Positions 8,174 through 11,517 of a stretch of DNA of 64,000 nucleotides are shown here, in pieces. Under the pieces are notes generated by a model that worked only from the letters and a program-made list of their open reading frames with translations, made no database searches and was not told the origin of the DNA. Source of the stretch: Haloferula sp. BvORR071 (lineage in GTDB: Bacteria; Verrucomicrobiota; Verrucomicrobiia; Verrucomicrobiales; Akkermansiaceae); the NCBI RefSeq assembly GCF_000739615.1, contig NZ_BATP01000030.1, positions 186,001-250,000 on the forward strand, given 5' to 3'. The translations under genes and the position numbers were made by a program. Every line of letters starts with the position of its first letter. The first letter of the stretch is position 1.

Positions 8174-9856
8174 GTGAACTCTGCTTCGATTACGAAATAC
8201 CGGCCCTTCCCGCCGGTGCAACTGCCGGACCGCACTTGGCCGGACCAGACCATCACCACCGCACCCATCTGGTGCTCGGTGGACCTCCGCGACGGCAATC
8301 AGGCGCTACCGCAGCCGATGTCCGTGGAGGAGAAGCTGGAGTTCTTCGATCTCCTCTGCCGGGTCGGCTTCAAGCAGATCGAGGTGGGTTTCCCTTCCGC
8401 CGCGGACACCGAGTTCATCTTCTGCCGCCGCCTGATCGAGGAAAACCGCATCCCCGATGACGTGACGATCCAGGTGCTGGTGCAGACCCGCGAGCACCTG
8501 ATCCGCCGTAGCTTCGAGGCCATCGACGGCGCGAAGCGGGCGATCGTCCACATCTACAACTCCACCTCGCCGCTACAGCGCCGGGTGACCTTCGGCGATG
8601 CAACGCGCGAGCAGATCCGCGACCTCGCGATCGATGGCGCGAAGCTGGTGAAGGAATTGGTTCCGACCATCCCCAATACCGAGGTGATCCTGCAGTACTC
8701 GCCGGAGTCCTTCTCGGACACGGAGCTGGATTTCGCGCTGGAGTGCTGCAACGGCGTGATCGGGGTCTGGGAGCCGACGCCAGAGAAGAAGATGATCGTC
8801 AACCTGCCGGACACCGTCCAGTGGACCACGCCGAACATCCACGCCGACATGATCGAGTGGATGTGCCGCCACCTGGACCGCCGCGATTCGCTTATCGTCT
8901 CGCTGCATACCCACAACGACCGCGGCACCGGCACCGCTGCCACCGAGCTGGGCCTGATGGCCGGCGCGGACCGCGTGGAGGGCACGCTCTTCGGCAACGG
9001 CGAGCGCACCGGCAACCTGGACATCGTGAACGTGGCGCTGAACATGAACAGCCACGGCATTCCGACCGGTCTGGACTTCTCCGACCTGACCCGCCTGCGC
9101 GAGGTTTACGAACGTGTGACCCGCATGACCGTGGGCGAGCGCCATCCCTACGCCGGCGAGCTGGTCTTCACCGCCTTCTCCGGCTCGCACCAAGACGCGA
9201 TCAAGAAGGGCCTCGACCGCCGCGACAAGGAGATCCAAGCCGACCCCAACACCCCTTGGGGTGTGCCCTACCTGACCATCGATCCCCAGGATATCGGCCG
9301 CTCCTACGAAGCGATCATCCGCATCAACTCGCAGTCCGGTAAGGGCGGCATTGCCTACATCCTCGACCGCGAGCACGGCTTGGACTTGCCCAAGACCATG
9401 CACCCGCAAGTCGGCAAGCGTATCTACGATCTGGCGGACGAACTCGGCAAGGAGCTCTCCGCCGACGAGATCCGCGATGCCTTCTACCGGCTCTTCGCCA
9501 ACGTCGAGCTGCCGCTAGCGGTGAAGGACTACGAACTCATCCACCATACCGCCGAGCGCGGCCAGGTGGCTTGTACGGCGACCATCGTACTTTACGGCGA
9601 GGAGCGGAAGATCCACGGCCTCGGCAACGGCCCGATCAACTCCTTCGTCCACGCCATGGAAAGCGCCGGCATGAAGGACTTCAAAGTGACCGACTACCGC
9701 TCACACGCCGTGCGCGGCGGCTCTGACGCCAGCGCCGCCGCCTACGTCCAGGTGCAGCACGAAGACGGCCGCATTCTCTGGGGCTGCGGCATCGATCCCT
9801 CGATCGAGATGGCCGGCCTCAAGGCCCTGGTCACCGCGTGGAATTTGCTGCGCTGA
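8174..9856 (+). CDS. leuA: 2-isopropylmalate synthase
   Basis: Condenses acetyl-CoA with 2-oxoisovalerate, the first committed step of leucine synthesis, in the cytoplasm. The 560-residue length fits the longer LeuA type with a C-terminal regulatory domain. The catalytic barrel shows CSVDLRDGNQAL near residue 37 and the metal-binding SLHTHNDRGTG followed by LFGNGERTGN. The C-terminal part (about 430-560; LGNGPINSFVHAM, YVQV) matches the LeuA dimer domain that binds leucine in feedback inhibition. Start is GTG, with no obvious Shine-Dalgarno. The leucine-rich leader upstream suggests attenuation control. The other leu genes are not in the window. Confidence 0.95.
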   Translation: MNSASITKYRPFPPVQLPDRTWPDQTITTAPIWCSVDLRDGNQALPQPMSVEEKLEFFDLLCRVGFKQIEVGFPSAADTEFIFCRRLIEENRIPDDVTIQVLVQTREHLIRRSFEAIDGAKRAIVHIYNSTSPLQRRVTFGDATREQIRDLAIDGAKLVKELVPTIPNTEVILQYSPESFSDTELDFALECCNGVIGVWEPTPEKKMIVNLPDTVQWTTPNIHADMIEWMCRHLDRRDSLIVSLHTHNDRGTGTAATELGLMAGADRVEGTLFGNGERTGNLDIVNVALNMNSHGIPTGLDFSDLTRLREVYERVTRMTVGERHPYAGELVFTAFSGSHQDAIKKGLDRRDKEIQADPNTPWGVPYLTIDPQDIGRSYEAIIRINSQSGKGGIAYILDREHGLDLPKTMHPQVGKRIYDLADELGKELSADEIRDAFYRLFANVELPLAVKDYELIHHTAERGQVACTATIVLYGEERKIHGLGNGPINSFVHAMESAGMKDFKVTDYRSHAVRGGSDASAAAYVQVQHEDGRILWGCGIDPSIEMAGLKALVTAWNLLR

Positions 9857-9878
9857 GGAAGGCAAGAAATTCAGAAAA

Positions 9879-9912
9879 ACCGGTTGCGCGGACCGAAATC
9901 CGCGCGACCGGT
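9879..9912 (+). terminator. Strong hairpin after leuA
   Basis: Arms 9879-9892 and 9899-9912 pair over 14 positions (one G-T wobble) around the loop ccgaaa, starting 23 bases after the leuA stop. There is no U-run. It may protect the 3' end or act as a weak terminator. Its right arm overlaps the conserved 5' end of the structured element that follows. Confidence 0.5.
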
Positions 9913-10005
9913 AATCCAGAGCCGGACGATTCCCCGTCAATTGATTCGCAAAGCCCGAAGCGAGGCAGAGCGAGGACAGGGAAACTCGCCCGGCTCAGTT
10001 TTTTT
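9904..10005 (+). ncRNA. Structured intergenic element, copy A (candidate ncRNA or riboregulator)
   Basis: One of two same-strand copies in this window. A closing stem pairs gagccgg (9919-9925) with ccggctc (9990-9996) and is followed by ag and seven T. Inside it, ttccc...gtc (from 9930) pairs with gac...gggaa (ending 9983). Copy B at 10801-10901 shares the 5' block gcgaccRgt, the block gagccggacgRttcc and the 3' block tcgcccggctcagttttt at the same spacing, while the inner stem has a different sequence that still pairs. It lies 91 bases before the nitroreductase gene. I do not recognise a known RNA family. Confidence 0.5.
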
Positions 10006-10096
10006 GTCCGGAAGAGGGGAAAGCGATTTTTCTGCATGCTCAGCCTGCGGATACGGCATTGGGCGGGGGTGCCGAGACCTGCCTAAGCTGCCGCCG

Positions 10097-10747
10097 ATGA
10101 AAACGATCGAGCCACAGCAACTTCTGGAGCAACTCAACTGGCGCTACGCCACCAAGCAATTCGACGCCGGCCGCAAGATCCCGGCCGACCAATGGGCGGC
10201 CATTGAGGAGGCGCTAGTGCTTTCGCCATCCAGCCTTGGCCTGCAAGCCTGGGCCTTCGTGGTGGTGCAGGATCCCGCCGTGCGTGAAGAGCTGAAGGCT
10301 GCCTCCTACGGCCAATCCCAGATCACGGACGCCTCGCACTTGGTCGTCTTCACGGCCCGCACCGACGTCACTCCTTCTGACGTCGATCAATACATGGACC
10401 GCATCGCCAAGGTCCGCGGCGTCTCTCCGGATAGCCTCGCCGGTTTCCGCGGTATGATCGAAGGCAGCGTACTGCAAGCCCGCGACACCGCTGGCCGCGC
10501 CGCTTGGACCTCGCGGCAGGTCTACATCCCGCTCGGAGTACTGCTGACCAGCGCCGCGCTCATGGGTCTGGATGCCTGCCCGATGGAGGGCTTCGACCCC
10601 GCCGCCTACGACCGCATCCTCGGTCTAGCTGAGAAGGGCCTGACCGCCGTGGCGGTCGCAACAGTGGGGTATCGCTCCACCGAGGATGGTTATGCCGCCT
10701 TGCCGAAGGTGCGCTACGCGAAGCAAGACGTGGTGCTCCACGTCTGA
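10097..10747 (+). CDS. Nitroreductase-family NAD(P)H-dependent FMN oxidoreductase
   Basis: Predicted cytoplasmic FMN enzyme that reduces nitro compounds or quinones with NAD(P)H. The 216 residues show the NfsB-like pattern: the N-terminal WRYATKQFD phosphate-binding segment, SPSSLGLQAWAFVVV around residues 40-54, and DACPMEGFDP with GLTAVAVATVGYRS near the C terminus. The start at ATG 10097 gives the standard family N-terminus. An in-frame start 71 codons earlier would run through the structured element and is rejected. It is flanked on both sides by the paired intergenic elements, the only visible hint of shared regulation. Confidence 0.88.
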   Translation: MKTIEPQQLLEQLNWRYATKQFDAGRKIPADQWAAIEEALVLSPSSLGLQAWAFVVVQDPAVREELKAASYGQSQITDASHLVVFTARTDVTPSDVDQYMDRIAKVRGVSPDSLAGFRGMIEGSVLQARDTAGRAAWTSRQVYIPLGVLLTSAALMGLDACPMEGFDPAAYDRILGLAEKGLTAVAVATVGYRSTEDGYAALPKVRYAKQDVVLHV

Positions 10748-10800
10748 GACAAGCTCGCGGAAAAATCTGAGAAGAAGCCCTTGCGTGCTTCGGGTTCAGT

Positions 10801-10901
10801 GCGACCAGTCTTATAGAGCCGGACGGTTCCAAGTCATAAAAACTCGCGACGCCTAAGTGAAGGCCTAGCGATGACTTGGATAATCGCCCGGCTCAGTTTT
10901 T
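10801..10901 (+). ncRNA. Structured intergenic element, copy B (candidate ncRNA or riboregulator)
   Basis: Partner of copy A with nearly the same length. The closing stem is gagccgg (10816-10822) with ccggctc (10888-10894), followed by ag and five T. The inner stem TCCAAGTCAT pairs perfectly with ATGACTTGGA (10 pairs), and an apical GCCT/AGGC hairpin is possible. The flanking blocks match copy A while the inner stem does not, so pairing rather than sequence is kept there. It sits 154 bases upstream of the YbaK-like gene. Confidence 0.5.
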
Positions 10902-11055
10902 GTACGCATTCCGACCCGGTAATTTGACCCGCCCTGACGGCAGGCTTACCTGTGAACACGGCGGCAAATGAACGGCTCCGCGGTCTTTTTCCGCTGCAAC
11001 CACCGCCGGGACAAGCCTCCCGGTTCCGGCCCAAACGGAAAGCGAGGGTAACCCG

Positions 11056-11517
11056 ATGCTTGCGAGAAAACTCAAAGACTACCTCGACCGGAAGCAGGTC
11101 AAATACGTCACCATCACCCACTCACGGGCCTACACGGCCGGCGAAGTGGCCCAAGCGGCCCACATCCCCGGCCGCATGCTCGCCAAGACCGTCATCGTCC
11201 TCATCGACGGCGAAATGGCCATGGCCGTGCTGCCATCCAATCATCGCGTCCTGATCGGCGACCTGCGCGAAATGGTCCAATCCGACGACGTGCGCTTGGC
11301 GTATGAGAACGAATTCGAGGTACTCTTCCCGGATTGCGAACCGGGCGCGGTGCCTCCCTTCGGCAACCTCTACAACATGCCCGTCTACGTGGCTCCGGAC
11401 ATGGCACGGGAAGGCGAGATCGCCTTCAACGCAGGCTCCCACACCGAGATCATCAAGATGACCTGGCACGACTTCGAAGAACTCGTGAAGCCCCGCATCG
11501 CGAGCTTCACCACCTGA
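11056..11517 (+). CDS. YbaK/EbsC-family aminoacyl-tRNA deacylase-like protein
   Basis: Single-domain relative of the bacterial prolyl-tRNA synthetase editing domain, expected to hydrolyse misacylated tRNA (substrate not assignable). The 153 residues cover the whole fold. Lys44 in MLAKTVIVLIDG is the conserved lysine of the family. GAVPPFG at 97-103 is the signature loop, and HTEIIKMTWHDF closes the domain. A weak gaggg ribosome-binding site precedes the ATG. It is preceded by structured element B and ends 12 bases before convergent recJ. Confidence 0.85.
   Translation: MLARKLKDYLDRKQVKYVTITHSRAYTAGEVAQAAHIPGRMLAKTVIVLIDGEMAMAVLPSNHRVLIGDLREMVQSDDVRLAYENEFEVLFPDCEPGAVPPFGNLYNMPVYVAPDMAREGEIAFNAGSHTEIIKMTWHDFEELVKPRIASFTT

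Follow-up and report, generated by a model that had tools for sequence, protein, structure and literature searches.

A candidate lineage-restricted family of small-RNA genes with a promoter-like upstream module in the Akkermansiaceae

The window, a stretch of 64,000 nucleotides from Haloferula sp. BvORR071, carries two copies of a short intergenic element in the order leuA, copy A, a nitroreductase-family gene, copy B, a YbaK-like gene and recJ (Table 1). Copy A begins just downstream of leuA, and the YbaK-like gene follows copy B after about 153 nt. On rechecking the sequence, both copies were found where an earlier note had placed them (9904-10005 and 10801-10901), with the three sequence blocks that it had reported as shared. 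The two resemble each other well past chance (blastn E 6.1e-9), and the best relative of copy A lies in a genome of the same genus, G003 (E 1.0e-17). Across the 7.8-Mb genome, with matches listed fewest mismatches first, GAGCCGGACGNTTCC occurs without mismatch in copies A and B only.

Table 1. Positions of the genes, promoter-like modules and predicted RNAs in the window
Feature	Coordinates	Strand	Parts	Evidence
leuA, 2-isopropylmalate synthase	8174..9856	+		NCBIfam NF002991 794.4 bits, TIGR00970 719.9 bits, both over cut-off
Promoter-like module, copy A	9877..9912	+	A-tract; TTGC 9884-9887; CGAC 9905-9908; block 1 of the earlier note is its 3' part	Pattern match with 0 mismatches; weight score 42.5 (training member); constant spacing
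Copy A RNA, predicted	9918..10005	+	Predicted start A9918/G9919; basal stem 9919-9929 with 9986-9996; variable upper stem; U-rich tail to 10005	Model R2 85.8 bits (training member); fold
Nitroreductase-family gene, between the copies	10097..10747	+		Pfam PF00881 over cut-off; NCBIfam NF008275 148.8 bits, below cut-off 227
Promoter-like module, copy B	10774..10809	+	TTGC 10781-10784; CGAC 10802-10805	Pattern match with 1 mismatch; weight score 32.1 (training member)
Copy B RNA, predicted	10815..10903	+	Predicted start A10815/G10816; basal stem 10816-10826 with 10884-10894; upper stem; U-rich tail to about 10901	Model R2 94.0 bits (training member); fold z -5.43
Aminoacyl-tRNA editing (YbaK-like) gene	11056..11517	+		Pfam PF04073 over cut-off; TIGR00011 33.4 bits, below cut-off 153

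The family had not been recognised when the element was first noticed, and no Rfam 15 family accounts for it: at gathering scores there were no matches in the whole window, and a relaxed search of 9700-11100 returned nothing credible, the best match reaching 22.1 bits (E 0.61) where the cut-off is 90. The portions available to us of the literature on Verrucomicrobia sRNAs, RNA motifs, candidate structured RNAs and ECF promoters do not describe the element.

Two covariance models were used for the family search: R1, built from 17 copies, and R2, which represents the transcript part alone. With R2 we find 26 copies, one of them tentative, spread over 11 of the 260 Akkermansiaceae genomes searched, all within two of the 16 genera. 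Carriers have one to six copies: six in G009, four each in G007 and G264, two each in the window's genome (G000), G003, G010 and G221, and one each in G012, G013, G323 and G320. The G320 copy is weak with R1 and reaches E 1.1e-6 with R2; it is listed as tentative, since the upstream module described below was not seen there in the part of the sequence inspected. Firm R1 matches (E below 1e-15) are present in seven of 18 genomes of the window's own genus, where blastn against 57 relatives also placed its strong matches; eight stretches with weak blastn matches (L103-L110) contain no element. The order, g13-genus and class sets were samples, searched with R1 under stricter filters, and the 288 order and 384 class genomes yielded no firm member outside the Akkermansiaceae. 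Weak additional R1 matches in the genus, order, g13-genus and class searches (E 0.006 to 1) were left uncounted, and two such rows (G000:C61 and G007:C1) are promoter-like sites without a hairpin. One further weak match, in a genome from another family of the order (L154, G160:C96:85244-85331; E 0.0056), has both arms of the basal stem and a short core, and may be due to chance.

An exact pattern for the outer stem was found in at least 119 stretches of genome contigs and in five of viral contigs. When R1 was run on these 124 stretches, the sole strong match was L257, on a contig of G323 (56.6 bits), with the rest at 24.7 bits or less; most of the others match R1 over the outer stem only, while L253 (23.9 bits, E 0.00027), L214 and L196 span the whole model. 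All but L257 were provisionally taken as chance occurrences in GC-rich DNA. The sRNA-like family is real, of restricted range and apparently undescribed, and covariance-model searching, the check proposed at the outset, has produced further copies with covarying stems in related genomes.

The RNA is predicted to be a rod of about 85 nt that starts at AGAGCC, with a basal stem that hardly varies, an upper stem whose sequence drifts, and a tail rich in U. In order along the rod, the basal stem H1 is followed by H2, a bulge on the 5' side that is often rich in A, H3, a small internal loop and H4. H1 is made up of ten standard pairs and an A-C mismatch in 25 of 25 copies, with seven of the ten pairs invariant. 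Identity between copies is 96.5% in the H1 columns and 43.9% in those of the core, which ranges from 49 to 73 nt in length; four copies (G264c, G007d, G009f and that of G323) form a simpler upper hairpin, a region in which their alignment is poor. No conserved single-stranded segment was noticed in the copies. Relative to dinucleotide shuffles, the fold has a z-score of -2.99 for copy A (9904-10007) and -5.43 for copy B (10801-10902), and the inner pairing proposed for copy B, TCCAAGTCAT with ATGACTTGGA, is present in its minimum-energy fold.

The earlier note had read the differences between the inner stems of A and B as covariation, and this holds across relatives. In the R2 alignment of 25 copies from 17 sources, 17 of 26 base pairs have changed on both sides, against a shuffle mean of 11.4, and 89.1% of paired cells can pair, against 77.1% in shuffles. 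None of 500 shuffles reached any of the five observed covariation values, and sliding the partners by one to three columns leaves eight to ten both-side-changed pairs and pairing of at most 48.5%. As the alignment was fitted to its own structure, the variable core was also tested free of alignment: its folding energy is below the mean of its own shuffles in all 25 copies, with p of 0.05 or less in 16 and not in the other nine, and a combined Fisher p of 3e-16 that comes from related, and hence not independent, copies. Conserved secondary structure with compensatory change, a criterion for a small-RNA gene, is therefore found here. The variable helices contain 29 G-U and 26 A-C combinations, a balance that does not tell the strand.

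In the 25 copies the G+C-rich basal stem is followed by three to seven T within the next ten bases, the run being weak (three or four T) in G009e, G007c, G009c and G010b. The closing stem and U-run pointed out previously are thus present, and it is plausible to call them a terminator. A simple terminator scan, whose loop limit of 8 excludes this hairpin, makes no call on it. GTAC lies within a few bases after the U-run in 12 of the 25 copies (in the window, at 10902-10906). A small-protein gene was considered and rejected: the longest frames extend over 4-30 codons in the 25 copies, mostly differ, and include no conserved reading frame, while a shared frame tail such as ARLSF is the translation of the invariant 3' arm.

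Upstream of 25 copies lies a compact promoter-like module in which TTG, C16 and CGA are invariant (25/25), while the information at positions 7-13 after the first T is 0.03-0.16 bits. The analysis of the 25 modules required a fixed distance from TTG to CGA, and every copy fitted at the expected place; an unforced alignment of 17 copies has no gap between TTG and CGA. CGA starts 13-15 nt ahead of the G in GAGCC, the place where one would look for a transcription start. We read the module, TTGC and CGAC separated by 17 nt, as a probable promoter for an alternative sigma factor; the sigma-70 consensus has no match in 9700-11200.

Similar modules occur without a hairpin ahead of a few coding genes, as judged by promoter weights derived from those 25 copies, which themselves scored 19.1-44.8. 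In the window's genome, one scoring 26.6 occupies the stretch from 112 to 75 bases upstream of the clpB start (L356, G000:C61). The clpB upstream regions were read in 11 of 19 genomes (13 rows, two of which are false starts inside the clpB of G013), and this was the only high score; the ten others had no strong match, the best being 7.9, at the homologous place in G003, and the rest 0.0 or below. At that place several relatives have TTTGAATAAA and TGCTATG, with CATAGCAA upstream, a possible operator dyad. Two more modules, in G007 (32.2) and G009 (26.7), end nine bases upstream of a small-protein gene that looks common to both genomes (L158 near 5005, L403 near 2349). The small protein behind these modules contains ELRRKG, and a protein sharing ELRRKGVHC, in a by-eye translation, adjoins the RNA copy at L100. 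A stricter pattern for the module gave 48 matches in eight genomes, 19 of them RNA genes, leaving 29 others compared with 15 for a reversed-pattern control; a looser pattern gave 33 matches in ten genomes, 13 of them RNA genes, leaving 20 compared with 20.

Could this upstream block instead belong to the RNA, which would then be about 125 nt long, as a hairpin, or act as a repressor operator? TTGC is complementary to GCGA, the fold of copy A has nine pairs there (about 13 by eye), and in some copies (A and G003b) the module doubles as a long dyad with the potential for a hairpin or operator. However, when TTGC and CGAC were treated as a stem in the 25 copies, no pair exceeded its shuffles and there was no covariation. 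Because the spacing is constant, covariation is lacking and the module recurs without the hairpin before those few coding genes, block 1 (gcgaccRgt) probably lies outside the RNA, and we regard the hairpin or operator reading as unlikely. Of the suggestion that the three blocks form a single RNA element, the structured RNA is supported and the inclusion of block 1 is not.

The window also invited a reading of the element as a cis-acting leader or attenuator, with a hairpin-terminator that controls the next gene. Each copy does precede a same-strand gene in the window, and a YbaK-like gene lies about 153-326 nt downstream of six of the 25 copies, in five genomes; the arrangement recurs in G007, G009 and G013, and in G010 two RNA-YbaK units follow a nitroreductase gene (L102:7951-9184), a duplication of the unit. 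This is not constant in the family, however, and copy A adjoins leuA as well. G003 keeps leuA, both copies and recJ, but between leuA and recJ neither a nitroreductase nor a YbaK match is present, and in five of the six copies that precede YbaK a second strong, terminator-like hairpin separates the RNA from the gene. By open reading frames, the copies at L093 and L100 each lie downstream of a divergent gene and face into a convergent one. For L100 the convergent neighbour is a 4-alpha-glucanotransferase gene (Pfam PF02446); the L100 divergent neighbour and both L093 neighbours rest on open reading frames, as the family libraries gave no name to their proteins. No constant downstream gene type, such as would be expected of a cis-regulatory leader, was found across the copy loci. 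Since the neighbours vary and at least two copies appear between genes that face otherwise, a leader of the nitroreductase or YbaK-like gene is improbable.

A terminator or 3'-UTR-derived RNA of leuA that was duplicated later is a still less probable origin. A copy directly follows leuA in the window's genome, G003, G264 and G221, and tandem arrays are found there in G264 (four copies with diverged upper stems in about 670 bases, L151:6853-7521) and G221 (two), some of them carrying, by eye, remnants of the leuA 3' end. Yet most copies lie elsewhere: the site after leuA holds none in the 12 of 15 other genomes in which it was read (in G320 over 124 bases only), and R1 and R2 detected none in any of these 15 leuA loci. 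Such an origin would also leave the upstream module unexplained, and a plain terminator has no need of a conserved basal-stem sequence.

A non-autonomous mobile element (MITE, REP/RAYT-like or attC-like) or DNA-level palindrome, which would fit the several unrelated loci, tandem arrays and palindromic layout, is very improbable given at most six copies per genome, positions common to several species (for example RNA-YbaK-recJ), inner helices that covary, and no match of copy B in phage and plasmid collections. An integron attC site, marked by R and L boxes, was provisionally set aside with reference to the attC motif. Leader, leuA terminator and mobile repeat are each disfavoured because each fails on several points. 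The earlier note had offered riboregulators or small RNAs, and would have taken a match to a known transposon-derived repeat as a refutation; the few copies, shared positions and covariation favour a small RNA over the repeat, and the retention of both copies in G003 speaks against a riboregulator acting in cis on the next gene.

We therefore consider it likely that the elements constitute a new family of small-RNA genes, restricted to one lineage, that are autonomous and act in trans. Such genes would explain the promoter-like block, the hairpin with its U-rich tail, the variable gene neighbourhood and the preservation of structure. Each copy would be a gene of its own, expressed from an alternative-sigma-type promoter (TTGC, 17 nt, CGAC; an ECF-like geometry) that starts transcription at AGAGCC. 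The resulting RNA of about 85 nt would fold as one rod, with the ten pairs and constant A-C mismatch of its basal stem nearly invariant and an upper stem that keeps its shape as its sequence drifts, and the U-rich 3' end would terminate transcription. Acting in trans, the RNA would most likely work as a sequestering or chaperoned regulator, bound through its basal stem by a protein, within a stress-type regulon. We favour a protein that recognises the stem over classic seed pairing because no conserved unpaired segment was noticed and H1 is invariant. A more specific version is speculative and, in our estimate, has only a small chance of being right: that these are decoy RNAs of an Akkermansiaceae stress regulon, in which a protein recognises the invariant stem with its A-C mismatch, the upper rod contributes shape only, and the same alternative sigma factor drives clpB in the window's organism.

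A 2022 review based on Rfam annotations lists eight distinct sRNAs for the entire Planctomycetes-Verrucomicrobia-Chlamydiae group, compared with 345 for Proteobacteria (PMC9029176). A covarying family with a promoter-like module offers a concrete sRNA to test in this group, and the module itself is a handle on a candidate alternative-sigma regulon. In addition, an invariant stem below a drifting rod is an unusual pattern of conservation for an sRNA that would act by base pairing.

Among known systems, the elements can be compared with trans-encoded bacterial sRNAs that have their own alternative-sigma promoter, such as GsrN of Caulobacter. They share the short intergenic gene, the compact promoter-like module and the U-rich 3' end; in contrast to GsrN-type sRNAs, no conserved single-stranded seed was noticed here, the conserved part is the paired basal stem, and there is no Rfam match. 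ECF-sigma promoters, for example those of Bacillus SigX, have a CGAC -10 and usually a -35 core of the AAC type. Judged against this consensus, the module is similar in its CGAC -10-like core and 17-nt spacer, but its -35 core is TTGC rather than the usual AAC type. In overall form, the predicted RNA resembles protein-binding rod RNAs such as 6S RNA, which, like the rod described here, consist of a single long hairpin that is imperfectly paired and has internal loops; the new family differs in being about half as long, in matching no Rfam family, and in occurring in one to six copies in two genera only.
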